Source of the DNA: Candidatus Methanophagales archaeon
Lineage (GTDB): Archaea; Halobacteriota; Syntropharchaeia; Alkanophagales; Methanospirareceae
DNA length: 33,018 nucleotides
Assembly: GCA_030612405.1 (NCBI GenBank)
Contig: JAUWNY010000004.1
Span: 1-33,018, forward strand
Direction: 5' to 3'
In this document: piece after piece, positions 6,098 through 31,630 of the stretch
How positions within the stretch are numbered: position 1 is the stretch's first letter
Layout: the number at the start of each line of letters is the position of its first letter
Position numbers and translations under genes: made by a program
The notes under the pieces: model-generated
The model's database searches: none
What the model was told of the DNA's origin: nothing
The model's input: the letters and a program-made list of their open reading frames with translations, nothing else

Positions 6098-6110
6098 GAA
6101 AGATATAACT

Positions 6111-9404: not shown

Positions 9405-10205
9405 ATGATCGAAACGGAAAAAATACCAGTCGTCATCCTCTGCGGCGGCATGGGCACAAGACTAAGAGAAGAAACAGAATACAAACCAAAGCCTATGATC
9501 GAGATTGGAAACAAACCGATCTTATGGCATATAATGAAAATATACTCAGCTTATGGGTTTAAGGACTTTATTCTCTGCTTAGGCTACAAAGGTGAAATGA
9601 TCAAAAGTTATTTTTATAACTATGAGATTTCAAATAACGATTTTACGGTAGAATTAGGCAGCTATAAGCATGTAGAAATTCACAGCAATCATAAAGAAAA
9701 AGGCTGGCGGGTTACTCTTGCTGATACAGGGGAGACGGCTTTGAAAGGTTCCAGGATAAAGAAAATAGAAAAATATGTAAATGGTGATTTATTCATGCTT
9801 ACTTACGGGGATGGTGTAGCAGACATAAACTTGCATGAACTACTGTCTTTTCATAAAAATCATGGTCGCATAGGAACAGTAACAGGTGTCCAACCACCAT
9901 CAAGATTTGGTGAAATGATAATTAAAGATAATAAGGATGTTTCATTTACAGAAAAACCGCAAGTTTCTGAGGGTTTAATAAACGGTGGATTTTTTGTTTT
10001 CAATCGAAAAATCTTCGACTATTTATCGGAGGATAATAATTGTGATTTTGAAGTGGGGCCTTTAGAGCAATTAGCCGAAGAGGGTGAATTAAGGGTATAT
10101 GAACTCAAAGGAGATTGGGCATGTATGGATACTTTTAGGGATATGCAGTATCTTAATAAGTTGTGGGAAAGTAGGAAAGCATTTTGGAAAATTTGGGATA
10201 AGTAA
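9405..10205 (+). CDS. rfbF: Glucose-1-phosphate cytidylyltransferase
   Basis: VVILCGGMGTRLREETEYKPKPMIEIGNKPILWHIMKIY, TYGDGVADINL, FTEKPQ, GDWACMDTFRDM. Confidence 0.93.
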   Translation: MIETEKIPVVILCGGMGTRLREETEYKPKPMIEIGNKPILWHIMKIYSAYGFKDFILCLGYKGEMIKSYFYNYEISNNDFTVELGSYKHVEIHSNHKEKGWRVTLADTGETALKGSRIKKIEKYVNGDLFMLTYGDGVADINLHELLSFHKNHGRIGTVTGVQPPSRFGEMIIKDNKDVSFTEKPQVSEGLINGGFFVFNRKIFDYLSEDNNCDFEVGPLEQLAEEGELRVYELKGDWACMDTFRDMQYLNKLWESRKAFWKIWDK

Positions 10206-10207
10206 AA

Positions 10208-11164
10208 ATGAGGAAACTAAACAAAGTATTAGTAACGGGAGCTACTGGCTTTATCGGTTCTCATTTAACGCAGAGATTGATACGAGAGGGATTTGAAGTT
10301 GGAATATTAAAGCGAGAAAAATCAAATATATGGAGGATTAAAGGTTTGTTAGATGAAATAGTGGCTTATGATGTGGATTTACGAGATACAGAAGAAGTTT
10401 CTAAAGCGTTTTCGCATTTTAGACCAGATGTTATTTTTCATTTGGCTACCTACTATGCGGTGGAACACAAGCCACAAGAAATACCCCTAATGGTTGATAC
10501 AAATGTTTTAGGAACAGCAAATCTGCTCGAAGCATCTAAAGAATCTATGGTTAAGCTATTTGTTAATACAAGCTCTTGTTTTGTCTATAAAGAAAGCGAA
10601 AACAAGTTAAGAGAAAACGATGACTTGAGCCCTTTAAACCTATACGCATTGACAAAGATACAAGCAGAACAAGCCTGCAGTTTTTATGCAGAAAAATATG
10701 GATTGAAAGCAATAACCTTCCGCCTCTTCCCGCCTTATGGTCCGGCTGATCACGAACGAAGATTGATCCCTTATGTCATAAAGAGTTTGCTTGAAGGAGA
10801 AAAGCTGAAGATGACCACAGGGAAGCAAAGATGGGACTTTGTTTTTGTTGATGATATAGTGGATGCTTACTTCAAACTTTTATCTGTTTCTGATCTTCCC
10901 AAAAAACATGAAATCTTCAATATTGGAACGGGGAACGCCGTCAGTGTTCGAGAAGTTGTATCCCGAATAAAGGAAATCATAGGTGCTGGGTTAGAGCCTG
11001 AATGGGGAGCAATTCCTCACAGAAAGAACGAGGTTTGGTTTATCTGTGCGGACATAAGCAAGACCGAAACATTTTTAAGGTGGCAACCTAAAATACAAAT
11101 CATGGAAAGAGGGTTGGAGCTCACGGTAGAGTGGTATAAAAACTTTTGGAAAAAGGAAGTATAA
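10208..11164 (+). CDS. NAD-dependent epimerase/dehydratase (extended SDR), candidate CDP-dideoxyhexose reductase/epimerase
   Basis: VTGATGFIGSHL, YALTKIQAE (YxxxK), RLFPPYGP; placed between rfbF and rfbG. Confidence 0.85.
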   Translation: MRKLNKVLVTGATGFIGSHLTQRLIREGFEVGILKREKSNIWRIKGLLDEIVAYDVDLRDTEEVSKAFSHFRPDVIFHLATYYAVEHKPQEIPLMVDTNVLGTANLLEASKESMVKLFVNTSSCFVYKESENKLRENDDLSPLNLYALTKIQAEQACSFYAEKYGLKAITFRLFPPYGPADHERRLIPYVIKSLLEGEKLKMTTGKQRWDFVFVDDIVDAYFKLLSVSDLPKKHEIFNIGTGNAVSVREVVSRIKEIIGAGLEPEWGAIPHRKNEVWFICADISKTETFLRWQPKIQIMERGLELTVEWYKNFWKKEV

Positions 11165-11166
11165 AA

Positions 11167-11628
11167 ATGGATGAGAAAGAGATTGAAGGCGTGATTGTGA
11201 AACCCCTGAAAAAGATACCTGATGAAAGGGGATGTATCTACCACATGCTCAGAAACGATGACCCAGTTTTTGAGAAGTTTGGAGAAATATATTTTTCAGT
11301 AGTATATCCCGGAGTCATTAAGGGATGGCATCTTCACGAGAAAATGACGCTGAATTATACTATTATACAGGGAATGATAAAACTTGTTCTTTATGATGAT
11401 AGGGAAAATTCTCCTACGAAGGGCAATTTGATGGAATTGTTTATTGGTGAAGAAAACTACTGTTTGGTTAAGATACCACCAAGAATTTGGAATGGATTTA
11501 AGGGTGTAGGAAACAAACCAGCCATAGTTGCAAATTGTGCAACATTACCTCATGATCCAAATGAGATAAAAAGAATTAGTCCAGTTACGGATAAGATACC
11601 TTATGATTGGGGGCTAAAACATGGATAG
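11167..11628 (+). CDS. dTDP-4-dehydrorhamnose 3,5-epimerase (RfbC)-like protein; start refined
   Basis: PDERGCIYHMLRNDDPVFEKFGEIYFSVVYPGVIKGWHLHEKMTLNYTIIQGMIKLVLYD. Confidence 0.8.
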   Translation: MDEKEIEGVIVKPLKKIPDERGCIYHMLRNDDPVFEKFGEIYFSVVYPGVIKGWHLHEKMTLNYTIIQGMIKLVLYDDRENSPTKGNLMELFIGEENYCLVKIPPRIWNGFKGVGNKPAIVANCATLPHDPNEIKRISPVTDKIPYDWGLKHG

Positions 11629-12757
11629 AACCATAAATGGTTACTTTGGAGATATATACAAAAATAAAAAAGTGCTAATTACAGGTCATACTGGCTTTAA
11701 GGGTAGTTGGTTATCTTTATGGCTTACAGAGTTAGGTGCAAATGTTATCGGCTACTCCTTAGAACCTCCAACAGAACCAAATTTATTTGAAGCTATAACT
11801 CTGAAGGATAAAATTACACATATTATTGGGGATGTCAGAGACGAAGAACATTTAATCTCCATCTTTGAAAAATATCAGCCCGAATTTGTTTTCCACCTAG
11901 CAGCCCAACCATTAGTGAGGGTTTCATATAAAGAGCCAAAACTTACTTATGAAACAAATGTAATGGGAACTATAAATGTTCTGGAAGCAGTAAAAAAAAT
12001 AAAAAGCGTTAGGGTCTGTGTTATTATTACCAGCGATAAGTGTTATGAAAATAAGGAATGGGTTTACGGATACAGAGAAACAGACCCTGTGGGCGGATAT
12101 GATCCATATAGCTCAAGTAAGGGCTGTGCTGAACTTGTAACCAGTGCATATAGAAGATCATTTTTCAATCCCGAAGATTACAGCAAAACTCATAATGTAG
12201 CTTTATCTTCTGTTCGTGCAGGAAACGTTATAGGTGGTGGAGATTGGGGAGAAGATAGGATTATCCCTGATTGCATAAGGGCTATTGCTAAAAATAAAGC
12301 AATTAATATCCGTAGCCCACAAGCAACAAGACCATGGCAATATGTTCTGGAACCCTTATCAGGTTATTTATTGCTTGGAGCCTTGATGTATGAAGACGGG
12401 GGCAAGTATAGTAGTGCTTGGAATTTCGGTCCGAACGATGAAAGCATAAAAACCGTGGAGGATTTGGTTAATCTTGTAATTAAATATTGGGATGGTGGTA
12501 CTTATACAATAGACACCTTAAATCATCCACATGAAGCAGGTCTTTTGAAGTTAGATGCAAGCAAAGCCAGAGCATTACTTGGCTGGAAGCCAATTTATGA
12601 CGTTTATAAAGCAGTTGAAAAGACTATTAATTGGTATAAGAATTTTTATAATGGTATGAGAAATGAAAAGTTGTATGAATTTACAGTAGGAGTACTTTGG
12701 GAATATGTAAATCGGATGAGTGATGAATATGGAATGATGGGGGAGAAGGGTGATTGA
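11621..12757 (+). CDS. rfbG: CDP-glucose 4,6-dehydratase
   Basis: KVLITGHTGFKGSWLSLWLTELGANVIGYSLEPPTEPNLFE, HLAAQPLVRVSYKEP, RAGNVIGGGDWGEDRIIPD. Confidence 0.94.
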   Translation: MDRTINGYFGDIYKNKKVLITGHTGFKGSWLSLWLTELGANVIGYSLEPPTEPNLFEAITLKDKITHIIGDVRDEEHLISIFEKYQPEFVFHLAAQPLVRVSYKEPKLTYETNVMGTINVLEAVKKIKSVRVCVIITSDKCYENKEWVYGYRETDPVGGYDPYSSSKGCAELVTSAYRRSFFNPEDYSKTHNVALSSVRAGNVIGGGDWGEDRIIPDCIRAIAKNKAINIRSPQATRPWQYVLEPLSGYLLLGALMYEDGGKYSSAWNFGPNDESIKTVEDLVNLVIKYWDGGTYTIDTLNHPHEAGLLKLDASKARALLGWKPIYDVYKAVEKTINWYKNFYNGMRNEKLYEFTVGVLWEYVNRMSDEYGMMGEKGD

Positions 12758-12758
12758 A

Positions 12759-12836
12759 ATGTTAGCAATAAAGGCAGTTGTAAAAAATGCAGTATCAGAA
12801 TGGAAAAATCTGGAGGAAGAGGAAGTATGGAAATAA
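12759..12836 (+). pseudogene. Remnant of an antitoxin gene of the type at 13647
   Basis: MLAIKAVVKNAVSEWKNLEEEEVWK* shares head with [12 protein letters not shown]... at 13647 but lacks most of the body. Confidence 0.5.
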
Positions 12837-12867
12837 GAGAAGGAATACTTTGCGGGGGAGGGCTAGA

Positions 12868-13080
12868 ATGCAGGCAATTAGAGACCTAATAGATACAGAA
12901 AAGCTGAAGCATATTATGAACATACCAGAGAACTTTGGGGATAAAGTTGAGGTTATTGTTCTGCCTTTTAATAAGGATGAAAAAAGCGAGTCATATTACT
13001 TAATGAAAATGCAACAACACTGCGGATACATTCAGGCTTTATTAAATGATCCAGATGAGGACGTATGGGATGACTTATAA
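12868..13080 (+). CDS. Small antitoxin-like protein (start refined)
   Basis: MQAIRDLIDTEKLKHIMNIPENFGDKVEVIVLPFNKDEK...DPDEDVWDDL; overlaps next ORF start as in TA pairs. Confidence 0.5.
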   Translation: MQAIRDLIDTEKLKHIMNIPENFGDKVEVIVLPFNKDEKSESYYLMKMQQHCGYIQALLNDPDEDVWDDL

Positions 13081-13639
13081 AAAAATCAGCAAAAATATTA
13101 TTCTGATTAGTAACTCAGATTTTGCTAAGAGTTCCTTACCTAGAGAATCCTTTTTACATATGGATAAATCAGTTTTACTCGACAAATCTGTCTTTACCGA
13201 GGAAGTCGCTGAAATGACTTCTTCATTTATGGATAGTGTTGTAAGAGCGATGATAATAGGAAAGTCTAAGCTTTATTATGAAAAGTTCCACAAGCCAATT
13301 CAGCATAAAGAATTTATTCAGGGCAAAGATTACATCTCTTATGCAGGACGGGTCTATGAGAACAAATATGGAAATTACGAGGATGCAGAAAAAGCGATTA
13401 GAAGCGATTTTGTGCTCGGGGGACATAAAGCATTTTATGTAAGAAAAGCAACGAAAAGAATATCTTTATCTATTGTTTCGGAACTCGACAGCAACATGCT
13501 TAATAGATGGGGATTAAACGCTTATAACTCTGTTCGGGAAGCAGTAGAAGAAGAGATAAACAAAAATATGTATGAAAATGCTAAAATAGGAATAGTTAAA
13601 AATGGCTTAGCCATACTATTAAATGTTAGCGGAGGATAA
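13070..13639 (+). pseudogene. Chimeric ORF: MazF/PemK C-terminal half + RfbH N-terminal linker + LarA/DUF2088-like C-terminal tail
   Basis: IILISNSDFAKSSLPRESFLHMDKSVLLDKSVFTEEVAEMTSSFMDSVVRAM aligns without gaps to [52 protein letters not shown] of 13858 ORF; then EFIQGKDYISYAGRVY vs [16 protein letters not shown]; then VLGGHKAFYVRKATKRISLSIVSEL... Confidence 0.5.
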
Positions 13640-13646
13640 AAATAAA

Positions 13647-13874
13647 ATGTTAGCAGTAAAGGCAGTGGTAAAAGATGGCTTGATAAAGCCGTTGGAAGCG
13701 ATAGACTTACCAGAAGACAAGGAAATTGTCATTTATATCTCTGAAGAAAAAGAGGAAGAATATTCAGATTGGACTGAAGAAGAATGGCAAAGATTTAGCC
13801 TTCATAGTTTTATGAAGACCGAAGACGATAAAGATGTAAACTGGGAGGGTTTCTTCAATGTTAAAAACGGGTGA
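13647..13874 (+). CDS. Antitoxin-like protein (AF2212/DUF104-type), partner of the MazF domain
   Basis: [31 protein letters not shown]; overlaps the MazF ORF by 17 nt. Confidence 0.65.
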
Positions 13875-15459
13875 TATACTCATTGCGGAATTTGCATATA
13901 GCGATCAGTCCGGGTTAAAACGAAGACCAGTTGTTTTGATAGAGCGATTTAAAGAGGATCTGCTTGTTGCATATTTTACGAGAGAGGTCGAGAAGTATGC
14001 AGATGAAACAACCTCCGTACGGATATCGCAAGAAGATATGTGCGAAGGTTCGATTAAATCCACAAGCATTATAAGATTGCATAAACTTGCTCTCGTAGAT
14101 GAAAGATTGTGTAAATGGGTGGCACGAATTGGAACTAAAAAGGTTGATGAAATACTTAGAAAACTTGCTACTATCCCAACCAAGGCTCATTTTAAAAATG
14201 TACATGGAGCTTCTTCATCCTTTACACCGGGCGAATCTTATATTCGCTACGCCGGCAGGGTCTACGACGAAAAAGAAATGATTTCTTTAGTGGATTCTGC
14301 ACTGGATTTCTGGCTTACAGCAGGGAGGTTTGCAAAACAATTTGAGGAGGAATTTGCCAAGTTCTTAGGAGTAAAACATTGCATTTTAACAAATTCAGGT
14401 TCTTCCGCTAATCTCTTAGCCATATCTACTTTAACTTCTCCCAAGTTAGGCGAGAGGAGACTTAAACCCGGCGATGAAGTAATTACCGTAGCCGCAGCGT
14501 TTCCCACAACCGTAAATCCAATTGTTCAGAACAATTTGGTGCCGGTTTTTCTGGATGTAGATGTCGGAACTTATAACATCCAGGCAGATAAGATTGAAGA
14601 GGCATTAACCGAAAAAACAAAAGCTATTTTTTTAGCGCATACGCTTGGTAATCCATTTGACCTCGATAAAGTCTTGGAAATATGTGAAGCGTACAACCTT
14701 TGGCTGATAGAAGATAACTGTGATGCTTTAGGCTCAAAATACAACGGAAAATATACAGGAACGTTTGGTCACATAGCTACTTTTAGTTTCTATCCGCCTC
14801 ATCACATCACTATGGGTGAAGGTGGAGCTTTGGTAACTGACGATACTCAGCTAAAGAAGCTGATCGAATCTTTTAGAGACTGGGGGAGGGATTGTTGGTG
14901 CGAACCCGGTTGTGATAATACCTGTGGAAAAAGATTTGGATGGCAGTTGGGTACTTTGCCTTTTGGCTATGACCACAAATATATTTATTCGCATATTGGA
15001 TATAACTTAAAAGTTACCGATATGCAGGCAGCAGTGGGTGTGGCGCAGTTGAAAAAGCTTCCAAGGTTTATCGAGGCGAGAAAGAGGAATTGGGGACTTC
15101 TTTATGAGGGGTTAAGGAAGTATGAGGATTATTTCATTCTTCCGAAAGCTGCGGATAAATCTGACCCGAGTTGGTTTGGATTTCTATTGACAGTTAAAGA
15201 GAACGCTCCATTTTCAAGGAATGAGATTACGAACTACCTGGAAGAGAACAAGATTGCGACCAGGTTACTCTTTTCGGGGAATATCATCCGCCATCCAGGT
15301 TTTGAGAGTGTGAAATATCGTGTTTACAATAATCTTAGGAATACAGACATTACAATGAATAATACTTTTTGGATTGGAGTTTATCCAGGTCTCACCAAAG
15401 AGATGATTGATTATGAATTGAAAAAATTTGATGCGTTTTTAGGAGATGAACGTAAATGA
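13858..15459 (+). CDS. rfbH: Fusion: N-terminal MazF/PemK-family toxin domain + RfbH-type CDP-4-keto-6-deoxyglucose-3-dehydrase (E1)
   Basis: [28 protein letters not shown]...[25 protein letters not shown] then [54 protein letters not shown] (His for PLP Lys), [18 protein letters not shown] Fe-S cysteines. Confidence 0.88.
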
Positions 15460-16630: not shown

Positions 16631-18307
16631 TCACTTCCTTCCCTTAATCACTCTAATCACACTATTTCTCTTCCTTAAGACTCGTGGATACACTTCCCGG
16701 TACGCATATTCTCTCCTCCTAAAATATTCCGCCAGTATTCTCGCTTTAGCCTTATCTAAAAATCCTTCGCGACATTCACCCGCCAAGGGAAAATTATACT
16801 CTTTCCTAATCTTTGGGTCATTGAAATCCATGTTCATATTCTTGTAATAAACACCATTTTCAATATGATAAACTCCTCCCTGCCTCGCGAAAGACATTAC
16901 AAAATCATCTTCTAACTCCCTGTAATTCAATTCAAGTAATGATGCAACACCATTAACGCTCCCGTTCCAATCCAATCCATAAGGTTGAGGCTCTGTAAAC
17001 AATTTCACATCTCCTTTAAAGATATTTCCAAGATGCTTCTCATGAGAATCCGGTGATGTGTATACATCTCCATGATGATCTACAAGAATATAATACATTC
17101 CCTGATAGCTCAGCCATCCCTTAAAATCAACATTAAAATCATTCAGCATATATTTTATGGTTGCATCATCAGAATATCTTGCGGTAAGTTGCCGTTCCTC
17201 TTCAGTATATGCCTTTGGATATAATTTACCGTTATACCAACCTTTAAATCTCCTGACATGAACGAGGAAATTATGCTCATCGAATATTTTAAACCACTCT
17301 TCAAACTTATCAATGAAAGGAGGCCACATAACAAACACTACCGGACACTCTAATCCATGTTCTCTCAAGAACAAAAGTTTATCTAGGAATTTATCAATCG
17401 AAGTTTGCGTAGGATGAAATGACGCATTAATGTTGAACCTCTTCTCCTTAAACAATTTCGTCTCTACGAGCCTATTCAATCGAGGAGACAGATTGCTTGT
17501 CATGTGTCCATACCAATTTGGCTCCTTAGCAATCATGTTCAGTACATCATAGAAATTTTTTGCTACCATTGGCTCACCAAAAGCGAGGTAAAAAACCAGC
17601 TTTTGGTTCCCAAAAGTTCTCTTAAAGGCATCATGCCATTCATTTATATCACCTTGAAAATGATGCCCCAGCCTATATTCATGAGGTGCATAACAATATT
17701 CACATTTGTAATTACAGAATGCATTATCCAACCCGTTAAAGCCCCAGACGATAACAGTTTGGCTTCTTGGCACGACCTGCATCAATGTTTTGCAAATTAT
17801 CTCATTTCCAACTCTCTCATTTGGATGTATCTCATCGTAAAGCCCTTCTTTGATGTTTGGCAACTCTTTCATCCATAAAGAATGAACATCTGCTATCCTG
17901 ACTCTCTTTTCATAAGCGACATCTCTTATTACTTCGTTGTATTCAATCAATTGTTTGCTAACTTGACCTTTCTGGTGATAATCCGGATTCATAGCCGTTA
18001 AGATAACTCTTATACCTCTTTTATCGAGTTCATCTACAATAAATCCAAGATTGTTTCTGAAAGTCTCTTTTTCAACTCCCTTTCTCCAATCGTTCATTCC
18101 AAATCCCACCACAACAACATCCGGCTCCAATGCTATCACTTGATCTAACCTTCGTAGACCATCCACAGATGTTTCGCTCACCACGCCCGCATTGATAACT
18201 TCAATCTGGAGATCACTGTATTCCTCTTTTATCTTCTTCTCAAACCTACTGCAATATCCTTTCGTTATCGAATCGCCAAAACAAACAATTTTACATGGAT
18301 TTTCCAT
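16631..18307 (-). CDS. SGNH/GDSL-hydrolase domain fused to radical SAM protein (start refined to MENPCKIV)
   Basis: FGDSITKGY, GFGMNDW, DEIHPN (SGNH blocks) followed by CNYKCEYC radical SAM motif in the same ORF. Confidence 0.85.
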   Translation of the reverse strand: MENPCKIVCFGDSITKGYCSRFEKKIKEEYSDLQIEVINAGVVSETSVDGLRRLDQVIALEPDVVVVGFGMNDWRKGVEKETFRNNLGFIVDELDKRGIRVILTAMNPDYHQKGQVSKQLIEYNEVIRDVAYEKRVRIADVHSLWMKELPNIKEGLYDEIHPNERVGNEIICKTLMQVVPRSQTVIVWGFNGLDNAFCNYKCEYCYAPHEYRLGHHFQGDINEWHDAFKRTFGNQKLVFYLAFGEPMVAKNFYDVLNMIAKEPNWYGHMTSNLSPRLNRLVETKLFKEKRFNINASFHPTQTSIDKFLDKLLFLREHGLECPVVFVMWPPFIDKFEEWFKIFDEHNFLVHVRRFKGWYNGKLYPKAYTEEERQLTARYSDDATIKYMLNDFNVDFKGWLSYQGMYYILVDHHGDVYTSPDSHEKHLGNIFKGDVKLFTEPQPYGLDWNGSVNGVASLLELNYRELEDDFVMSFARQGGVYHIENGVYYKNMNMDFNDPKIRKEYNFPLAGECREGFLDKAKARILAEYFRRREYAYREVYPRVLRKRNSVIRVIKGRK

Positions 18308-18308
18308 A

Positions 18309-19433
18309 TTACGCCCCTCTTTTATTTTCAACCATAATATCCAAAGATTCATTAATAAATTCCCTTTGCTTTTTCTTCCAACCTTCAATATATTCCTGTG
18401 AACATTCTATTATTGATTGCCTATTTTGTTTTATCTTCTCATATTTTTCTATGTAAGCATCAAAAGAAAAATCATCCGTCCTGATGATAAAATCATCCAT
18501 ACCAATGCTTTTCATGAAATCCGTTGTCTTTAAAAATTGATATTCAAAACCTATATTTGGAACTTTTTGAACCCAGCCAAGTATGCACGGATGTAAGCGT
18601 TGGCTGATTAGATAATCAAACTTTCCAATTAAAGAACACATTTTGAGTGCTTCGTTTGAAAATGGTATCAATTTCGGGTTGTTTTTGTGCTTCATTAGTT
18701 TAATAACTTTTTTCGCTGCTTCCGTATCACTGTCGTGTTCATTCTCTGTAAATGAGAAGAAATATATCTGAGCACCTTCTTCAACGAAATAGTCTGCTAA
18801 CTTGGCAAATATCGTATATATTTCCTCGTTTTTTAGATATTGTGGTTCTCCTGTTTTCATAAATCTCACGTTCATTCCAACGTTGAAATCGCCATTTAAT
18901 TTGTTATTTACAGGAATAGGATAAAAACTCAATGCCGGATCGCCAATAACATCTACTTCGTTCACTATTCCATTAGAGATAAATAATTGTTGGCTAACAG
19001 GGCCCCTGACACCTTTCAAAATGGCTCTATCAAACAGCTCTCTCATGTGAATGCGATCTTTTTCCGGCAACTTTTCTTTCTCCCTCCTGAAACCACCGCC
19101 AAAAATAACTAATGGCGTTTTTCTATTTCTTGATATTTTGTGAAGATTAAATTTATCAAATCCAAAGATAGTTAGATAGAGGTTCATGGAATCCAATCCA
19201 AGAATAGACCCACCTCCAATTATAATTAAATCGTTTTTGATAAGATATGAATGAATCATGCGATGTTTAAAATCCTTTACTCCCGAAAGAGGAACAAATT
19301 GTAATTTTATGCCCTTTTCCTCTGCTCCTTCAAAGAATAAACGTTTGGTAACCTCGGCTATTATGTCATCTCCGATTGCGTTATATCCATACCATCCAAG
19401 TAATAGGATTTTGTATTTTTTATCGTTGAACAT
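18309..19433 (-). CDS. Polysaccharide pyruvyl transferase family protein
   Basis: ILLLGWYGYNAIGDDIIAE, LIIIGGGSILG, GVRGPVSQQLF, VIGDPAL, DYLISQRLHPCILGW. Confidence 0.87.
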   Translation of the reverse strand: MFNDKKYKILLLGWYGYNAIGDDIIAEVTKRLFFEGAEEKGIKLQFVPLSGVKDFKHRMIHSYLIKNDLIIIGGGSILGLDSMNLYLTIFGFDKFNLHKISRNRKTPLVIFGGGFRREKEKLPEKDRIHMRELFDRAILKGVRGPVSQQLFISNGIVNEVDVIGDPALSFYPIPVNNKLNGDFNVGMNVRFMKTGEPQYLKNEEIYTIFAKLADYFVEEGAQIYFFSFTENEHDSDTEAAKKVIKLMKHKNNPKLIPFSNEALKMCSLIGKFDYLISQRLHPCILGWVQKVPNIGFEYQFLKTTDFMKSIGMDDFIIRTDDFSFDAYIEKYEKIKQNRQSIIECSQEYIEGWKKKQREFINESLDIMVENKRGA

Positions 19434-19502: not shown

Positions 19503-20222
19503 TCACTTTTTGCGTTTTAGGATATTTATACTCAATGTAATCATTAATGTTTGCAAGTATCTTAAATCGGTTCGTTTTAGTAATCGAGTAAACGACCAGT
19601 AATTTGTATGCCAAACATCCCACTCATTTTCTTTGCGTATTCCTCCTCTCAATTTAACATATTTTTTACAGATATCGTGTGGGAGTAAACCAGCAAAAAG
19701 AAGTCCACAATGACCCTCTTTGTACCATAACATATTTGGTAGGCTAATATACGCAATCCCATCTTGGCGTAACACCCTATACATCTCATTTATAAATTTG
19801 TCTTTATTCTCTACATGTTCTATTACCTGATTGCAAAATATAAAGTTGAAAACGTCATCCTTAAACGGCAATCTATATCCATTTCCCTGTATAAAATCAA
19901 TAGATACCCCATGCTCTTTTGCACGTACTTTGGCTAACTTCAGCCCAAGACCAGGATCACCCCATTTATAATCAACACCACACACTTTATTTCCATCCAA
20001 AGCAAGGGAAATACTCGCCGGTCCAGTTCCGCAACCTAACTCCAAACATCGCATTCCCGAAGAATTTGGCAGATATTTTCTCACAAAATGCAATTGATGG
20101 GATATCCGTTTTACCGCAGTTCGATGATCATTGATCCAAAAGTCCCAAAGTGGATGATCTCTTCCACGCCGTTTTTCAATATCCTGTTCAACTAAGTGCA
20201 TAAAACTGTCAGTTTTATCCAT
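19503..20222 (-). CDS. Class I SAM-dependent methyltransferase
   Basis: MRCLELGCGTGPASISLALDGNKVCGVDY, FIFCNQVIEHVENKDKFINEMYRVLRQDG. Confidence 0.88.
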   Translation of the reverse strand: MDKTDSFMHLVEQDIEKRRGRDHPLWDFWINDHRTAVKRISHQLHFVRKYLPNSSGMRCLELGCGTGPASISLALDGNKVCGVDYKWGDPGLGLKLAKVRAKEHGVSIDFIQGNGYRLPFKDDVFNFIFCNQVIEHVENKDKFINEMYRVLRQDGIAYISLPNMLWYKEGHCGLLFAGLLPHDICKKYVKLRGGIRKENEWDVWHTNYWSFTRLLKRTDLRYLQTLMITLSINILKRKK

Positions 20223-20308: not shown

Positions 20309-20677
20309 CTATCCGAGGTCATACATAAATACACCATAGGAGACAGCCCCTTCCACCTTATCAAAATACTCATCTGGGTACGGCAAATCTTCTGCATTTC
20401 CAACTTCAAACTCGCATGTTATTCTCTCCCTTTCTGCAAGACGCTTCGCTCTCTTTATCACATCTTTTGATATGTCGATTCCATGAACCTTGCAGCCCTT
20501 TTCAGCGATCTTAAGGCTCAATGTTCCCACCCCACAGGCGACATCCAAAATTCTTTCGCCTTCTTTCAGATTAAGCCATTCAAATATATTTCTCCACTCG
20601 ATTATTCTGATAATATTTGGCGTGCCTATTGTTTTGTATATCAGATGGCCTACTTGTTCTTTCATGTATTCGTTCAT
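20309..20677 (-). pseudogene. C-terminally truncated class I SAM methyltransferase
   Basis: RILDVACGVGTLSLKIAEKGCKVHGIDIS...DEYFDKVEGAVSYGVFMYDLG* stops where the conserved core should continue. Confidence 0.65.
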
Positions 20678-20690
20678 GTTATCCACCTTT

Positions 20691-22940
20691 TTAGCGATAA
20701 TATACCACTGCATCGCCATTATTATATATTTCACTCATATTAAGTAAAGTAGTATAGAACGTCAAATTTTGAAGTTGCACAGCTGTGGTGTTTGAACGCC
20801 CTCCTCTCGGATCACCTAACCATATTTTTCCATCCATTACATTTTTTCTTCCAAGGAAAATACGAGTATCATCCGGGATTCGAGTTATTACCTCCTCTTC
20901 AGTTCCTCGTAAAGGAGAAAAAGAACCACGCGACATTTGAAGTAAAAGTGCATTATGTACACCAGCATATACTCTCTTGCTGGCATCGATATTATCACTT
21001 AACCACCTTGCGGAAACAACTTCTTCTTCATTGAAATTTGGACGATTAACGGCAGTAGTATTTAGCGGGAATGAATATGGTTGGTTGGCGAGTTCATAGA
21101 CAAAACCCGAATTGAAAAGTAAATAAATTACAAAAAATGTAGATAATACCTTCAACGAACTTCTCACATTTTTATTTGTCCAAGATGTCCTAACAATCCT
21201 ACTCAGTATCTTCAATATCGTCATCCCGCCGATTACACAAAATGGTGCTAAAAATAGGAGGGTAATATGATATAACCGTGGTGTGTTAATAGTTGCTGCA
21301 AAATAAGGAATTATTATACCCCCCAAGCACATCCCAAAGAATGGGATAGAGAAAGCGAGATATTCGGCGTTGAAATCTCTTTCTTTTGGTTTCAATAATG
21401 ACATGAGGATGCCTACAATAATAAAAAACTGTGTGGTGAAGTGGATAGCTTTATTAAAATAACCAAGTAGTGTTTCAGGCTTCATAAGTACTAGCTCCAA
21501 TCCCTGTGTAGCCTCGGGATTTAAAAACTCCGAGATGATACTGCTTGCCATGTGATCGCCCAAGTGCACAAACGCATTAAATGCAGCAGAACTTGAAACA
21601 TACATATACCATGTTAGTGTAAATGTGATAAAAAGGAGGACAAAAGTCAAGCTGATTGTTCTATCTCCAAAATTCGAAGAATTTGGATTACCGACAAGGG
21701 CAAGTTTCTCATTTTTATACCTACTAAATTTAGAATGAAGGTTATTTCTCAATTTTTGTATTGCAGGGTTATCCATTGAAAACAATATCAGCCATGAAGT
21801 GATAAGAGAAAACATATAGATGTAAGACAGTGCATAATGAGATACAATCAATGAAATTCCAAATACGACAAATAGAAACGATCGCTTTATTTTATCCATA
21901 TTTTTGTCTATCATTAACAAGATCAATAAAACGAGGAATAATTCAGCAATTTTTTGACGATGCAATCCTACCATAGACACATGGAAAGCGAACATTGACA
22001 TAAAGAAAAAACACGACAAAAATGCGATTTTATCATTTGTCTGTTTTTGAAATATTCGATACAATCCGACAGGCACTAAAGAAAATACCAATGGATAGAT
22101 TATTTTGAATATCCATGTTATTTCCATATTCGAGATAATGGAATAAATTGGAGGTAACATAGCGAGACTTAACATAGCATTATAAGTACCATATATCGTT
22201 GGATCCCAAATTGAGTTCATCACTACTGTTTTAGAAATCCAATATTCAAATGCAGCGTCTGCCCACCCGACCATGTACATCGATATTAGCGATGCGTGGT
22301 ATAAAAGCGAGATTGCAATTACAAAAACAGCTAAAGGATACAAATCATTTGGAATGAACTTATCAAAAGCAATTAAAATGGCTATTAGCGCAATTATGAT
22401 GATTAAAAGCATCAGAATGATATTATTATGATGAAAATTAACCAAATACGTTCCAAATATCGCTAAAAAAGGAATTAAGCATAAGAACAATGCCGGTGAA
22501 GATAGCACACTCTTAACATCGATGAAATTAGGGTCAGAGAAGTCTTTATCCCTTACGTAGCTTAGAATACATAATATTAATACGAGAATGCTTATCGTGA
22601 TGATCAAAGGCGTGATTGAAATCGGTCCGGAAATACCGAAAAGAGGATAGATAGTGTTCATAAACAATCCGGTGAACATCAAGGTCGCAATACTCAATCC
22701 AACCGTGTATAAAATTGTCTCGATATTTCCGAGTTTGTGTAGTTTGAGAATTCTGAGGATGATAATCCCGGGTACGAATGTAAGATAAACGAAACCGATA
22801 CACTGTCTTAAAATTGGAATTTGTAAGCCTACCGCATCTAAACCTATCACGCCCCATAATGCAACTTGGATGGCTAAAACTACCTTGAGAAATTTCTTAA
22901 TTTCCCAATCGTTCATTTGCAAGGGGTTATTTAGTTGCAT
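20691..22940 (-). CDS. DUF2206-like multi-TM membrane protein (archaeal, probable glycosyltransferase-type)
   Basis: ~15 TM segments, FVYLTFVPGIIILRILKLHKLGNIETILYTVGLSIA, C-terminal soluble domain. Confidence 0.75.
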   Translation of the reverse strand: MQLNNPLQMNDWEIKKFLKVVLAIQVALWGVIGLDAVGLQIPILRQCIGFVYLTFVPGIIILRILKLHKLGNIETILYTVGLSIATLMFTGLFMNTIYPLFGISGPISITPLIITISILVLILCILSYVRDKDFSDPNFIDVKSVLSSPALFLCLIPFLAIFGTYLVNFHHNNIILMLLIIIIALIAILIAFDKFIPNDLYPLAVFVIAISLLYHASLISMYMVGWADAAFEYWISKTVVMNSIWDPTIYGTYNAMLSLAMLPPIYSIISNMEITWIFKIIYPLVFSLVPVGLYRIFQKQTNDKIAFLSCFFFMSMFAFHVSMVGLHRQKIAELFLVLLILLMIDKNMDKIKRSFLFVVFGISLIVSHYALSYIYMFSLITSWLILFSMDNPAIQKLRNNLHSKFSRYKNEKLALVGNPNSSNFGDRTISLTFVLLFITFTLTWYMYVSSSAAFNAFVHLGDHMASSIISEFLNPEATQGLELVLMKPETLLGYFNKAIHFTTQFFIIVGILMSLLKPKERDFNAEYLAFSIPFFGMCLGGIIIPYFAATINTPRLYHITLLFLAPFCVIGGMTILKILSRIVRTSWTNKNVRSSLKVLSTFFVIYLLFNSGFVYELANQPYSFPLNTTAVNRPNFNEEEVVSARWLSDNIDASKRVYAGVHNALLLQMSRGSFSPLRGTEEEVITRIPDDTRIFLGRKNVMDGKIWLGDPRGGRSNTTAVQLQNLTFYTTLLNMSEIYNNGDAVVYYR

Positions 22941-22975: not shown

Positions 22976-23644
22976 TCACGAACGGGGGGGCAGTTTATCT
23001 GCCAGTTTACAGTCATAGTAGCTGAATCTGTTTGATTTGACAAGTATAGGCAAAAATGATATGAAATCCGAATGATTTGTCTTTAAAACTTCAAATCCTG
23101 CCTCTTTTAGCAGATTGCTGATTTTGGATAGTGTAAATGCTTGAACGTGATCAGAGAGTCCAATTTTAGGAAATATCTTTGAAACAATCTTATTTCTAAA
23201 ATGGTCAAAAAGCAATGAATAAAGACCATAACCATTTGGAACGGTTACAATCAAAAGCCCATTTTCTTTCAATATCTTGTTAATCGAGTTTAATGCTTTA
23301 TCTGGATGGTTTAAATGCTCCAAAACCTCTGAACAGACAACAAAATCAAAATTTCTTTTTTCGCGTATGAAACTTTCAGCGTCATCAACAAGGAACAGTG
23401 GATTATCATTTGTAATTCCTCTGGATTTTGCAGCTTCAATGTTATCCGGGGATATATCGATACCAACCATGCTATACCCAAGAGACGCCAACGGAATTGT
23501 AACGTTTCCTTTACCGCATCCCAAATCCAAGCCTCTGAGGTCGGTTTTGTTGAAGTGATTTCTTATGGACTGAACGATAAAGTCAAGTCGTTTGAAATCA
23601 GCGTATCTCGTGTATTCGGTATATTCATGGTAATTTTGGGTCAT
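22976..23644 (-). CDS. Class I SAM-dependent methyltransferase
   Basis: GLDLGCGKGNVTIPLASLGYSMVGIDIS, FVVCSEVLEHLNHPDKALNSINKILKENG. Confidence 0.9.
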   Translation of the reverse strand: MTQNYHEYTEYTRYADFKRLDFIVQSIRNHFNKTDLRGLDLGCGKGNVTIPLASLGYSMVGIDISPDNIEAAKSRGITNDNPLFLVDDAESFIREKRNFDFVVCSEVLEHLNHPDKALNSINKILKENGLLIVTVPNGYGLYSLLFDHFRNKIVSKIFPKIGLSDHVQAFTLSKISNLLKEAGFEVLKTNHSDFISFLPILVKSNRFSYYDCKLADKLPPRS

Positions 23645-24834
23645 TTATTTCTCATTTTATATTTTATCAGATTGCTATATAATCTGTTCAACTTTTCACC
23701 TATCGTATTCCAATCGTATTCCTCCTCAGCCAACTTTCTGGCAGTTCTACCTAATCTTTCTCTTTCATCGTTGTTTTCTATTAAGTAATTTATCGCTTCA
23801 ATAAATTCTTCATTCACATCATCAACAATAATTGCATGCTTACCATTATTGGCATTTATCCCCTCGATGCCTTTTTTTGTTGTAACTATTGGTAAGCCAG
23901 CCCCTATATAGTCAAGTATTTTTACTCTTGTCCCGCCACCTGTAAGAACCGGAACTATTGCGATATCACTTGCAACCAGTAACTCATTTAGATCATCTAC
24001 AAAACCTAAATATTTTATTTTTTCGTCTTCATATTTAGGAGCCCCTTTGCCTGCTATTGCGAATAGAACCTTTTCATGTTCTTCATGAATTTTTGGGGCA
24101 ATGTATTTTGTGATTAATTTTACCGCTTCTTTATTTGGATAGTAATCATAAACGCCATGAAATAAAATTATAGCTTTGTCCTCCGTTACTCCTAATTTCT
24201 TCTTACAATTTATCTTGTTATAATTCTTTAAATCAGGATTGACAGTTCCAGTTGGTATAACTGTGATCTTATTTTTGTCCAAAGAATATCTTTTGATGAA
24301 TTCATCTTTATCTTTTTCACTAACTGTTATGATGTGATCTACCAGCTTGCACGAGATTCTCTCAATCATAGATCCATAGAGGTAAGATACCCATCTTTTA
24401 ATGGCTTGAACATCTTGTTCTGTTAATACAACATCATTAAGCCTTTTTGCTTCAACATCATGTGCCTCATATACAATATAAGGGGATATTTTATTAAATT
24501 TCGTTAAGACTTTTGCTACGAACAAACCCTGTGGATAGGAGATATGTATCATATCAGGTTTATTCTCTTTGATTATTTTATAAAGTTTAAATATGTAACT
24601 TGGATTCAAATCTGCAAAAAAAGTTCCAAAATGGATGTTTTTCAGGATAAATGGATTGAAGAAATATCTCTTCTCAACAAAAGATGTATTTAATTCGTTT
24701 TTATATTCTGTTGACTCCAAGGTAAAAATCTTATTCTTTTTTGATAGTTGTTTAACCACATTTTGCATTCTTGATTCGTTTCCCGCTTTTGGTGCAAACA
24801 TATTCCCGTGAAAGAATACAATCAATATCTTCAT
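23641..24834 (-). CDS. GT4-like glycosyltransferase
   Basis: AHDVEAKRL, VIPTGTVNPDL, ILFHGVYDYYPN, PVLTGGGTRVKILDYIGAGLPIVTTKKGIEG. Confidence 0.9.
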   Translation of the reverse strand: MKILIVFFHGNMFAPKAGNESRMQNVVKQLSKKNKIFTLESTEYKNELNTSFVEKRYFFNPFILKNIHFGTFFADLNPSYIFKLYKIIKENKPDMIHISYPQGLFVAKVLTKFNKISPYIVYEAHDVEAKRLNDVVLTEQDVQAIKRWVSYLYGSMIERISCKLVDHIITVSEKDKDEFIKRYSLDKNKITVIPTGTVNPDLKNYNKINCKKKLGVTEDKAIILFHGVYDYYPNKEAVKLITKYIAPKIHEEHEKVLFAIAGKGAPKYEDEKIKYLGFVDDLNELLVASDIAIVPVLTGGGTRVKILDYIGAGLPIVTTKKGIEGINANNGKHAIIVDDVNEEFIEAINYLIENNDERERLGRTARKLAEEEYDWNTIGEKLNRLYSNLIKYKMRNK

Positions 24835-25997
24835 TTTAATAGCGCCTCATAAACCCTCTCCGTCTCCTCAGCTATATTTTCCCAGGAATAACCTTCAACT
24901 TTCTTCCGTGCATTCTTTCCCATTTTTTCCCTTACATCTTCGTTCTCTAATAAATAAATTATCGCATCTGCAAGATTTTTCTCATCACCTCTTTTAGTGA
25001 AAAGACCGTTATATCCTTCTTCGATAATACACTTGAACGTATCTAAATCGCTTACAACCATTGGCAGACCAGAAGCAGAAGCCTCTAAAAAGACGATTGG
25101 AAAAACCTCGGTATTTAAAGTTGAAGGCAGCACAAAAACATCTGCTGCCTTGTAATACAATGATTTCAAACTCTCTTCTACAAATCCCGCAAATTTTAAG
25201 TGATTTTTAATGCCAATTTTCTCAGCCAATTTTTCGAGTTCATTTCTCATTTTTCCTCTACCAACAAAAACCAGTTCCGTGTCTGGAACTTCCTTTATTA
25301 TCATCGGCATCGCCTTTACCAGAACATCAGGTCCTTTGTATGGGGTCAGATTTCCAACAAAGAGGATTATATTCCTATCAAGCGGCAATCCTAATTTTTC
25401 TCTGCATTCCTCCTTTGAATATGGAATGCCGAAGTCTTCCATGTTTATTCCATTTGGAATCACAACGATTTTATTCCGATATTTCCCTAAAAACCTTGAT
25501 TCATCGATATAATATTCAGAAGGAGATATTATAACGTCTGCAAAGGATAGGACTTTATCAAGCAAATGTTTGTTATAAAAAGATAAAGCCGTTCTACGAA
25601 CAAAACCTCCAAAACTCTCCTGCCAATCTCCATGATATGTAAGTATAAATGGCACTTTCTTCCTCTTTGCACACCTCGCTCCAGCAATCTCCCCTGGCGG
25701 CGTGCTGAAATGTGCATGGATAACATCTACATCATGTTTCATAGGTTTATGAAACATTCCAAATGAAAAGATGGAACCGTGCACCCTGAAGTTCGTGCCA
25801 TAACGGTATATCGTCATATTTTCGCGTTTTTCAATGGAATCTTTAGAATTAACTGATGTGGTAAAAATGTCTATTTTATGACCTCTTTTAGCCATCTCGA
25901 TTGCCAGATAATATGCAGCCAGTGTTGAACCTCCATATAAATATTGTTTAAAATGTTGAGAATATGAAAATTTTGTATTAAAGTATCCTATCTTCAT
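24831..25997 (-). CDS. GT4 family glycosyltransferase
   Basis: VIPNGINMEDF, ILFVGNLTPYKGPDVLVKAM, VFVLPSTLNTEVFPIVFLEASASGLPMVVSD. Confidence 0.93.
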   Translation of the reverse strand: MKIGYFNTKFSYSQHFKQYLYGGSTLAAYYLAIEMAKRGHKIDIFTTSVNSKDSIEKRENMTIYRYGTNFRVHGSIFSFGMFHKPMKHDVDVIHAHFSTPPGEIAGARCAKRKKVPFILTYHGDWQESFGGFVRRTALSFYNKHLLDKVLSFADVIISPSEYYIDESRFLGKYRNKIVVIPNGINMEDFGIPYSKEECREKLGLPLDRNIILFVGNLTPYKGPDVLVKAMPMIIKEVPDTELVFVGRGKMRNELEKLAEKIGIKNHLKFAGFVEESLKSLYYKAADVFVLPSTLNTEVFPIVFLEASASGLPMVVSDLDTFKCIIEEGYNGLFTKRGDEKNLADAIIYLLENEDVREKMGKNARKKVEGYSWENIAEETERVYEALLK

Positions 25998-26188
25998 CTT
26001 TCCATCCTCATATACTTCGAAAAGACCTTTATGGATATCACCATTCCCTTCAACTTATGTAATCTGTTTCTCTCAAAATACATGCCTTCTTTTACCATCC
26101 TATCCAAAGTAGACTCTCCCCCATACCCCATAAAACTGCAGTGATCAGCTCTCAAACCCTCTAAAGTTATTAAAGCTATGTTTCTCAT
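25994..26188 (-). pseudogene. Internally deleted remnant of a sulfatase-like gene (N-terminal ~40 aa + short unrelated tail)
   Basis: MRNIALITLEGLRADHCSFMGYGGESTLDRMVKEGMYFERN vs MRNIVLITLDSLRADHCTFMGYKRETTPTIDRMAKEGLYFEN of adjacent gene. Confidence 0.75.
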
Positions 26189-27537: not shown

Positions 27538-27677
27538 TTCTCTCTCCCTCCTATATACCCCAAAAACATCCTCGTCGAATACCAAAGCCGCCTCATCTCA
27601 TCCAACCCGTTTCTCCTCAAAACCTGCCTCTTAGTTATTTCTTCTCCCTTCACCTTCATCACAAACTTTATCCGCAT
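27534..27677 (-). pseudogene. C-terminal remnant of a radical SAM (B12-binding type) gene, ATGA-coupled to the sulfatase-like gene
   Basis: RQVLRRNGLDEMRRLWYSTRMFLGYIGGREK* vs RQVLRRHGFDEARRLLYSVKMFIRYVSNR* at the end of the 28291 ORF. Confidence 0.65.
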
Positions 27678-28290: not shown

Positions 28291-29745
28291 TTATCTATTT
28301 GAAACATACCTTATAAACATCTTCACCGAATATAAAAGCCTCCTTGCTTCATCGAACCCATGTCTCCTCAAAACCTGCCGCATAGCAAGTGGAACATAAT
28401 TCAAAGACACGTAATAACCCTTTAATATCTTATCCACTTCTTTCACTATCTCCTCATTTGTAAGTCCCGGATAGGAAATAATCGCCTTCTGATGCCCTTG
28501 TTCATCTAAATACTCATTCGGGTCATCCGTGAGCAAATACCCATTTTCCTTACACCATTCGTAAAGTTCTGTTCCAGGGAATGGCGAGCAAACCGAAACT
28601 TGCAACTGCTCAGGCTTTATCCCCCTGATGAATTTCTTCGTCTTCTCTATCGTCGCCTTAGTCTCTCCCGGCAAGCCGATAATGAAATCCGCATGTAACA
28701 GCAACCCCGCACTCTTCACATTCTTTGCAAATTCCCTCGCCAACTCAACCGTAAACCCTTTTTTTATATTTTTCAATATTTCATCGTCTGCTGATTCAAA
28801 ACCGGTGATGAGAAACCTACAGTTAGTCCTTCTCATCTCTTTCATCGTCTCCGGATCAAGCGTATCCGCTCTTGCATTGCATGACCAACTTATATCCAAA
28901 CCCCTCTCTACATATCCCTTACAGAACTCCAGTACCCTATTCTTGCTTATCGTGAAGGTATCATCCTCAAGAAAGACTTCTTTAACTTCTGGCAAATTCC
29001 CTTCAATCCACTCAAGTTCATCAAGAAGATCTTCGACGCTTCTGACCCTATATTTTTTCCCCATCAATGACTGTGGCCATGAACAGAATGTGCACTTATA
29101 AGGGCAACCTCTACCGGTAAATATCTGAACCATCGGATATAAAGAATAGTTAAGGAAATAATCGCGAATATTCAGGTGCCTTTTGTACACCTCAGACACA
29201 AACGGCAATCCGTCCAGTTCACCTGACGTAGACCATGGCCTGTTTGGATTGTGAATAACCGTACCATTTTGTTTAAATGATATTCCAGAAATATCCTCAA
29301 TGCTTTCTCCTTTCTCCATTCTTTCTGCCAGTTCAGCCAAAGTAAAATCGTATTCATATCTCGCAACGATGTCTATGCCACCGTCCAGCATTTTTTCCGG
29401 GAATTTGGATGTTGGCGGACCTGCCATAATAACCGGCACATCAGCATCGAATTCGGTTTTTATTTTTTTAGATACATCCAAATCGTTGTTCACACTTGTG
29501 AAACTTGTTCCAACAACCACCATGTCTGGACTAAATTTCCTTAAATCCTCTATGACTTTTTCGATGCTCCAATCCCATGCAGGTGCATCAACAAGTCTGA
29601 CCCTATGTCCATTATTTTCAAGTAAGCCGGTAGCGTAAGAAATCCAGATTGGGTAGTAGAGCGTGCCTCCCCTTCCGGTATCCTGCCACCTCATTTCCCT
29701 ACCAAAATGAGCAAAGTAGGGTGGATTTAGCATGTAAATTCTCAT
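28291..29745 (-). CDS. B12-binding-domain radical SAM protein (HpnJ-like)
   Basis: N-terminal cobalamin-binding-like domain, GRGCPYKCTFCSW (CX3CX2C), DFIIGLPGET. Confidence 0.88.
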   Translation of the reverse strand: MRIYMLNPPYFAHFGREMRWQDTGRGGTLYYPIWISYATGLLENNGHRVRLVDAPAWDWSIEKVIEDLRKFSPDMVVVGTSFTSVNNDLDVSKKIKTEFDADVPVIMAGPPTSKFPEKMLDGGIDIVARYEYDFTLAELAERMEKGESIEDISGISFKQNGTVIHNPNRPWSTSGELDGLPFVSEVYKRHLNIRDYFLNYSLYPMVQIFTGRGCPYKCTFCSWPQSLMGKKYRVRSVEDLLDELEWIEGNLPEVKEVFLEDDTFTISKNRVLEFCKGYVERGLDISWSCNARADTLDPETMKEMRRTNCRFLITGFESADDEILKNIKKGFTVELAREFAKNVKSAGLLLHADFIIGLPGETKATIEKTKKFIRGIKPEQLQVSVCSPFPGTELYEWCKENGYLLTDDPNEYLDEQGHQKAIISYPGLTNEEIVKEVDKILKGYYVSLNYVPLAMRQVLRRHGFDEARRLLYSVKMFIRYVSNR

Positions 29746-30725
29746 TTCACCACCCCTCTAAACATTCCGATGCCATATCCCCAGAACCAGATTGCGATCA
29801 AGAGGTAAAAGTTGAAGAAATCCCTCATCCTTCCTGTCCTAGTACCCAGATACAAACCTATTAAGCCTATTCCAATTCCTCCAATAACTAAAATCAGAAA
29901 AGCGATTAAAGGTAAAATAGGATTTAGAAAAGATAATGCAAAGAGAATAATAATTACCAAAATAAGCATCGACGGTGTGTAATAATACCATCTCCCCATA
30001 TCCCAATGCAATTTTATTACCTGCGTTCTTCCAATTCCATAATTTAATGCCATCTTTGCAAATCTTTTCCATGTCGGTCTTCGATAATGGAAAACTTTTG
30101 CATCTGGCGTAAATAAAATCTTGTATCCTTTTTCTCTTATCCGGTAATCCAGTTCTTCATCATCTTCCGCTACTAAATTATGGTTGAAGCCACCTACTTC
30201 TTCCAAAACTCTCTTCCTATACATTACATTGCATGTAGGATTGTGATATATCTCCATAACTTCATCGGCATTAAAACCGTATCTCGGTCCGGGATTACTC
30301 AAAAACTTTAAAATTTCCCCTGCACACTTCGCAAAATCTGTATCATCTTCCGGCGTTACATTTGGCCCTCCAACAGCAGCAACGTCTTCATTACTAAAAT
30401 GCTTAAGAAGATTTTTTATCCAGTTCGTATCCACAACGCAATCTGCGTCTGTAAAGGCTATGAACTCCCCAGAAGATTCTTTCACGCCTAAATCCCTTGC
30501 ATAGCTTATTGTTCCTTTGTCTTCATAAATAATGTTATCTGTATATCTCTTAGCTATCTCGACTGTGTCATCTGTGGAGTGCCCATCTACAATGATTAAT
30601 TCTATTTTATCCTTAGGATAATCCAAATTCTGGATTGAATCCAAACATCTTGCAATTATATTTCCGTTATTCTTCGTTGGAATTATGATTGAAACTTTTA
30701 TGTTATTGCTTGCTTCAAACGTCAT
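29742..30725 (-). CDS. GT2 family glycosyltransferase with C-terminal TM segments
   Basis: VSIIIPTKNNGNIIARCLDSIQNLDYPKDKIELIIVDGHSTDDT, FTDADCVVD. Confidence 0.92.
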   Translation of the reverse strand: MTFEASNNIKVSIIIPTKNNGNIIARCLDSIQNLDYPKDKIELIIVDGHSTDDTVEIAKRYTDNIIYEDKGTISYARDLGVKESSGEFIAFTDADCVVDTNWIKNLLKHFSNEDVAAVGGPNVTPEDDTDFAKCAGEILKFLSNPGPRYGFNADEVMEIYHNPTCNVMYRKRVLEEVGGFNHNLVAEDDEELDYRIREKGYKILFTPDAKVFHYRRPTWKRFAKMALNYGIGRTQVIKLHWDMGRWYYYTPSMLILVIIILFALSFLNPILPLIAFLILVIGGIGIGLIGLYLGTRTGRMRDFFNFYLLIAIWFWGYGIGMFRGVVK

Positions 30726-31630
30726 CGCTTCTTCATCTCCCTCTCCAACCGCTCAACAACACCTCTCAAATTTACTATCATATCCGCAATCAATCCAAAC
30801 AGCATAATAAACATACCCACCAGTATGAGCAACGTGGTTAAAATAAACGAAGGCTCGAACATTGAACCCATTAACCATCTACCCACTGAATAAACTCCGA
30901 GTATCACGCCCCCTACAAAAAATGGTATCCCAATCGTGCCGAAGAACGCCATTGGCTTGTGATTCTTCACGGTATTCGCAATCACCATAAAAAACCTATA
31001 GCCATCCTTTATCGCACTCAATTTGCTCTCGCCAGCCCGTTCCTGGTATTCAATCGGTATCTCCTGATAGTTCATCCCTATATGCAGAATTTTCGTACTC
31101 ATTCCCGGTGTAAAACTCAAGCCATCTGGCAAATCTTGAAATTCGGGTAAGAGCGATGCTTTAAAGACGCGAAGCCCGCTTCCTGCATCCGTTATCTTCT
31201 TTCCTGTATATATTGAGACAATAAGCGCAAAGAACCTGTTTCCAAGCTTTCTTATAGCTGGCATGCCTCTGTTCTTGCCTAAAAAGCGTGAACCAACTGC
31301 AATATCAACGTCATTTTCTTTGCATAGTCCATACAATTCCGGTATCTTCTCCGGTGGATACGTGTTATCGGCATCCAGGAACGCAAAGCATCCGACCTCG
31401 TCATTATTCCAATTAAAACCTATTTTCAATGCCTTGCCATAGCCATAATTAACAGGATTGCTGATTACTTTTACGTTTCTCTCCCGCGCTATCGCCGCGG
31501 TGTTATCCGTGCTGCCGTCGTCAACAACGATTATTTCCGCATCCTTGCACGCCTTTTTGGTGCGGTCTATCACTTCTCCAATACTCGCTTCTTCATCACG
31601 TGCCGGTATGACTATCCTCAGGTCTTTCAT
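30722..31630 (-). CDS. GT2 family polyprenol-phosphate (DPM-like) glycosyltransferase with C-terminal TMs
   Basis: RIVIPARDEEASIGEVIDRTKKACKDAEIIVVDDGSTDNTA, FLDADNTYPPEKI, GSGLRVF, two C-terminal TMs. Confidence 0.92.
   Translation of the reverse strand: MKDLRIVIPARDEEASIGEVIDRTKKACKDAEIIVVDDGSTDNTAAIARERNVKVISNPVNYGYGKALKIGFNWNNDEVGCFAFLDADNTYPPEKIPELYGLCKENDVDIAVGSRFLGKNRGMPAIRKLGNRFFALIVSIYTGKKITDAGSGLRVFKASLLPEFQDLPDGLSFTPGMSTKILHIGMNYQEIPIEYQERAGESKLSAIKDGYRFFMVIANTVKNHKPMAFFGTIGIPFFVGGVILGVYSVGRWLMGSMFEPSFILTTLLILVGMFIMLFGLIADMIVNLRGVVERLEREMKKR

Follow-up and report, generated by a model that had tools for sequence, protein, structure and literature searches.

In the archaeal DNA analysed here, an SGNH/GDSL hydrolase and a radical SAM enzyme are encoded as one polypeptide, and this fusion is confirmed as real. 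It is a rare architecture that recurs across domains of life, being present in the archaeon and in two gut-type bacteria of the Lachnospiraceae. Judged from the alignments, the auxiliary-cluster cysteines typical of its relatives, STM4011-like and viral twitch-type enzymes, have been lost from the radical SAM domain, and in the Lachnospiraceae the fused SGNH domain has lost catalytic residues and drifts fast.

The fusion gene

The window, by which we mean the whole 33,018-nt stretch that was analysed, is a complete contig. The host assembly has a completeness of 85% and a contamination of about 4%, and its SSU rRNA is best fitted by the archaeal model (1493 bits). The features of the window are collected in Table 1. 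One open reading frame runs through both domains, with no stop and no frameshift between the SGNH and radical SAM parts. The motif blocks from which the original prediction had read a single polypeptide occur exactly in this frame, on the minus strand, at residues 11–18 (GDSITKGY), 70–74 (GMNDW), 158–163 (DEIHPN) and 198–208 (CNYKCEYCYAP) of the protein. Both domains are recognised, and their order and junction are identical in two independent bacterial genomes, which excludes an assembly join and upholds the prediction on this point.

Table 1. Features of the window, with positions counted from its first nucleotide.
Feature	Positions	Strand	Basis or remark
SGNH-radical SAM fusion ORF	16631..18307	-	558 aa, ATG at 18307; last in a series of glycan genes on this strand
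SGNH hydrolase domain, residues 1-180	17768..18307	-	PF13472, alignment with stand-alone archaeal SGNH proteins, Foldseek
Radical SAM core and degenerate twitch region, residues 181-445	16973..17767	-	Pfam, alignment, tree, Foldseek
CX3CX2C (C198, C202, C205), ligating the SAM-binding [4Fe-4S]	17693..17716	-	Sequence; invariant in aligned relatives
Former twitch (auxiliary cluster) region	16973..17119	-	The relatives' four Cys sites here are S, S, Y and no Cys
C-terminal extension, residues 446-558	16634..16972	-	Alignment; low model confidence
Polysaccharide pyruvyl transferase (PF04230)	18309..19433	-	E 2.7e-22; directly upstream, stop 1 nt from the fusion ATG
SAM-dependent methyltransferase	19503..20222	-	Pfam; upstream, same run
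Methyltransferase and two GT4 glycosyltransferases, ends overlapping	22976..25997	-	Domain models, gene spacing
B12-binding radical SAM protein and two GT2 glycosyltransferases	28291..31630	-	Domain search
CDP-sugar genes: glucose-1-phosphate cytidylyltransferase, epimerase, RmlC-like, CDP-glucose 4,6-dehydratase, RfbH-like DegT	9405..15459	+	Domain models

The SGNH domain of the archaeal protein

The N-terminal domain matches PF13472 (Lipase_GDSL_2) over residues 9–164 (E 1.3e-25, above the cut-off), and the Ser, Gly, Asn and Asp-x-x-His of the SGNH/GDSL class are all present, in blocks I, II, III and V: GDSIT (S13), NAG (G41), GMND (N72) and DEIH (D158/H161). The predicted structure has two domains (mean pLDDT 68, pTM 0.62), pLDDT falling below 50 over most of the last 115 residues, and the best PDB matches of its first domain by Foldseek are acetyl-xylan esterases of the SGNH fold. 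These enzymes (AlAXEase 7ddy, Axe2), like the stand-alone archaeal SGNH proteins, agree with the domain in fold and in all catalytic blocks but consist of a single domain, whereas here a radical SAM enzyme follows in the same polypeptide. Stand-alone SGNH proteins of 208–228 aa from another family of the same phylum are 34–38% identical to the SGNH half. The fusion protein has no N-terminal signal, its first strand being predicted from residue 5, and it is therefore probably cytoplasmic.

The radical SAM domain and the loss of its auxiliary cluster

The second domain combines the CX3CX2C motif, which is kept in all relatives aligned, with a SAM-binding GEP motif (FGEP, 243–246) and a partial TIM barrel (Pfam, Foldseek). 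In the window protein it matches PF04055 (Radical_SAM) at residues 197–274 with E 2.4e-6 and 28.2 bits, slightly below the cut-off of 29.5, which both Lachnospiraceae homologues exceed (38.4 and 47.1 bits). Its best structural match, from the predicted structure, is anSMEcpe. The top-scoring named family for all three fusions is STM4011 (NF038073), aligned from the core into the twitch, but their scores of 56.3, 84.2 and 84.0 bits lie far below the 200-bit cut-off and place them outside that family. STM4011 members, unlike the fusions, have four auxiliary Cys sites and neither an SGNH domain nor the C-terminal extension, and neither the window gene nor its two homologues have the STM4012–STM4015 neighbours found in two STM4011 reference loci.

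Viral, Omnitrophota-group and STM4011 relatives have four Cys sites after the core in common (GxxC..G, VxRC, PxPC, ...C). All four are occupied in 75 of the 76 aligned non-fusion relatives, as against none in the window protein and one in each Lachnospiraceae homologue, so that a SPASM or twitch set of auxiliary cysteines is lacking from all three fusions. Their radical SAM domains form one clade (100/98) in the radical SAM tree. The distant viral relatives of this half, about 27% identical, lie in marine contigs; the twitch-type family was seen in mostly aquatic viral contigs (loci L039–L118), often with a second paralogue about 5–6 kb away.

In two-electron oxidations by twitch and SPASM enzymes, the auxiliary cluster acts as an electron acceptor, as observed for SuiB and proposed for BtrN and PqqE (PMC9012708). 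BtrN, a twitch-type sugar dehydrogenase, resembles the fusion in having a radical SAM core followed by a short C-terminal twitch-like region, and a sugar-like substrate of this kind is likely for the fusion as well; however, oxidation by BtrN requires a four-Cys auxiliary cluster (PMC9012708), the ligands of which the fusion clade lacks. The loss favours redox-neutral or reductive chemistry, without proving it. It does not by itself fix the type of reaction, since MoaA has an auxiliary cluster although its reaction is redox-neutral (PMC9012708).

Homologues, divergence and rarity of the fusion

Full-length homologues, each of 559 aa and aligning from end to end, occur in two Lachnospiraceae genomes, one of them a Blautia MAG, and are 33–36% identical overall to the window protein. 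By part, this identity is 19–21% in the SGNH region, 46% in the radical SAM core and 20–30% in the C-terminal extension; between the two bacterial proteins the corresponding values are 32%, 83% and 67%. Conservation of the core at these levels, between archaeon and Bacillota and within the Lachnospiraceae, indicates that it is under constraint. In the bacterial fused domains the SGNH blocks are broken, as the catalytic Ser has been replaced by Val or Lys (GDS to CDV or GDK) and the catalytic Asn by Lys or Glu (GMND to GVKD or GTEE). The degenerate domain still aligns with SGNH proteins in hhalign (probability 96%, E 1.8e-9), and the model of the Blautia fusion matches TesA and other GDSL proteins in Foldseek, a comparison that is not fully independent as its input alignment included the window protein. 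The C-terminal extension is common to the three fusions and missing from the viral and Omnitrophota-group relatives.

Single-protein scans returned no relatives of the whole protein or of its radical SAM half, because the search patterns sat on poorly conserved stretches. The Blautia homologue came to light through a gapped DNA pattern (MTSNxS...ASFH...DK) derived from motifs that it was known the viral relatives have in common with the window protein; the second emerged when 397 genomes of the Blautia family were searched with a profile. The strict DNA pattern found one fusion among 84,980 species genomes and missed the second member, so that its count is an undercount; the profile searches, which covered sets of 397, 226, 228, 111 and 109 genomes, yielded two fusions altogether. 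Other than in Blautia itself, none was found among 226 genomes of the Clostridia-type class, nor among 228 of the phylum of a Syntrophobacteria locus or 109 of the Thorarchaeota phylum, empty results that alone weigh little. Whole-protein searches found no fusion in 58 genomes of the archaeon's class and only SGNH-only or weak radical SAM matches in 394 of its phylum. The plasmid and phage collections gave nothing but SGNH-only or STM4011-type matches, and viral contigs queried with natural two- and three-row alignments gave none. Alignments A1 and A4, which contain artificially varied rows, served for locus retrieval only, and no conclusion is built on those rows. In the SGNH tree, the fusions are compatible with a single origin (p-AU 0.4), although the tree does not demonstrate one. 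In open-access text, we found no relevant paper on SGNH or GDSL proteins with radical SAM, none on STM4011, and, with combined terms, nothing on point about radical SAM enzymes in polysaccharide clusters. The view that the architecture is unusual holds: in the genomes searched, full-length homologues were found in two Lachnospiraceae only, and that literature yielded no description.

Gene neighbourhoods

Glycosyltransferases, a flippase, CDP-sugar genes and a pyruvyl transferase surround the fusion, in agreement with its predicted place in a surface-glycan cluster. A PF04230 pyruvyl transferase lies within two genes of the fusion at all three loci (3/3), each of them a glycan cluster, and the one in the window shares no more than about 21% identity with its counterparts; since many glycan clusters contain such a gene, part of the association could be background. 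Three proteins of the CDP-sugar region of the window are 51–59% identical to proteins of the Blautia cluster. Each bacterial fusion also has, within two genes, a CE2-type SGNH esterase with intact GDSI/GTND/GHPT motifs, the order being fusion–esterase–transferase in Blautia and fusion–transferase–esterase in the other Lachnospiraceae genome. These esterases match CE2/AxeC2 models; they are encoded by separate genes, have a CE2_N domain and show no close kinship to the fused domain. Every one of the three loci therefore holds one SGNH domain with intact motifs, fused or nearby.

Other genes of the window show peculiarities of their own. A methyltransferase ORF at 20309–20734 (minus strand) ends early, at 141 aa, and appears truncated. 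The RfbH-like (DegT) ORF at 13858–15459 (plus strand) carries an in-frame N-terminal PemK/MazF-like domain and is preceded by a small antitoxin-like ORF at 13623–13874, and part of an RfbH-like N-terminal motif (YISYAGRVYE) occurs a second time in the ORF at 13046–13639; this arrangement suggests that the RfbH-like gene has been hit by an insertion or duplication. Three sulfatase-fold proteins, at 6024–7529 (plus), 7554–8960 (minus) and 26185–27585 (minus), are without C/S-x-P-x-R. On this ground they are unlikely to be formylglycine sulfatases, and perhaps transfer or hydrolyse phospho-substituents of the glycan.

Distant relatives of the radical SAM domain occur in glycan loci, and one is fused to two glycosyltransferase domains, which ties the lineage to glycans. 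The latter is an ORF of 1208 aa that runs into the end of its contig (L375:9004–12630, minus strand), in which GT2 and GT4 domains precede a C-terminal radical SAM domain with auxiliary cysteines. At another locus (L376, G1326:C1:374000–393900), about eight small STM4011-like radical SAM domains are arrayed in tandem, alternating with B12-binding radical SAM genes, to whose products the B12-binding protein of the window (28291–29745, minus strand) is 26–28% identical; an SGNH-like gene is also present there. SGNH-like genes thus lie near both the array and the 1208-aa protein, in the group sampled around the Omnitrophota locus. Whether relatives carry the two domains as separate neighbouring genes, a check that had been suggested, can be answered partly: the Lachnospiraceae radical SAM gene has intact SGNH genes close by, and SGNH-like genes lie near the distant relatives in two Omnitrophota-group genomes.

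Possible function and alternative explanations

We tentatively propose, at somewhat less than an even chance, that the protein is a cytoplasmic glycan-tailoring radical enzyme with SGNH as partner esterase or scaffold; its location, glycan substrate, type of chemistry and division of labour are what we infer from few fusion sequences (n = 3). The radical SAM domain, with one [4Fe-4S] cluster and SAM, would abstract a hydrogen atom from one of the sugar residues in the precursor of a surface polysaccharide. Given the loss of the auxiliary-cluster ligands, epimerisation, elimination or rearrangement, that is, a redox-neutral or reductive outcome, would be more likely than two-electron dehydrogenation. 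The archaeal SGNH domain may be active as an esterase or acyltransferase, cutting off or relocating an O-acyl substituent of that same glycan. In the Lachnospiraceae, the acyl role has apparently passed to the separate CE2-type esterase while the fused domain stays as a scaffold, a hand-over of function that we infer from the motifs. Tailoring may further be coupled to pyruvyl-ketal decoration through the neighbouring pyruvyl transferase. As a general rule, the sequential action of esterase and radical chemistry on one substrate, as originally envisaged, is weakened, since both Lachnospiraceae proteins have lost the catalytic Ser and Asn while their radical SAM cores remain 83% identical; for the acyl-carrier substrate also envisaged, no support was found.

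Those same losses, the low identity of the SGNH regions beside that of the cores and the retention of the fold by the degenerate domain would also suit an SGNH part that is only a structural or glycan-binding module, with the radical SAM domain doing all the chemistry and the archaeal catalytic residues a relic. This is a serious possibility that we nevertheless find doubtful, as the archaeal blocks are all intact, which is unlikely if they are unused, and as an intact SGNH esterase lies near the fusion in the bacterial clusters. That the contig might instead be mis-binned bacterial DNA, and the fusion bacterial rather than archaeal, is suggested by its bacterial closest homologues, its absence from the class and phylum genomes searched and the level of contamination; but the tetranucleotide signature of the window correlates with contigs of its own genome at r 0.79, against 0.29–0.63 for the bacterial loci compared (a small sample), and a DUF2206 protein adjoins the fusion gene, so that we regard mis-binning as unlikely.

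The radical SAM domain also allows other readings. It is weakly similar to SPASM maturases (DynA and StsB models), and SuiB and the epimerase EpeE are among the structural matches, which might point to a RiPP-type peptide maturase with an attached hydrolase. However, the auxiliary cysteines are lost, no gene for a precursor peptide was seen next to the fusion gene (in no systematic search), and glycan genes lie all around at three loci, as they do around the nearest relatives, which makes this quite improbable. An anaerobic sulfatase maturase acting on the sulfatase-like proteins of the window would accord with the top structural match and the three sulfatase-fold proteins; it was rejected, as the SPASM cysteines are absent, the putative partners lack the C/S-x-P-x-R site that is converted to formylglycine, and the anSME model scores at most 24.5 against a cut-off of 349, and we give it hardly any credence. 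Equally implausible is a viperin-like nucleotide-modifying defence enzyme: pVip models match locally with E 1e-7, but only over about 75 residues round CX3CX2C, the NCBIfam viperin model gives 24.7 bits against a cut-off of 180, and the genomic context is one of glycan synthesis.

Conclusions

Radical SAM enzymes of polysaccharide clusters are largely uncharacterised. The glycan-tailoring reading could extend to a new two-part glycan-editing family spread between archaea and Bacillota. Its radical SAM part, with a single cluster, would modify a carbon atom of a sugar; the SGNH esterase, fused or encoded nearby, would govern how that residue is O-acylated, in coordination with pyruvylation. In this broad form we consider the reading rather unlikely. 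The fusions nonetheless make up a small, testable family, with bacterial members of a culturable type, a fixed partner gene and the clear prediction of one cluster and not two. As twitch-type enzymes seemingly without an auxiliary cluster, and with a strongly constrained core, they provide a natural experiment on the role of that cluster.
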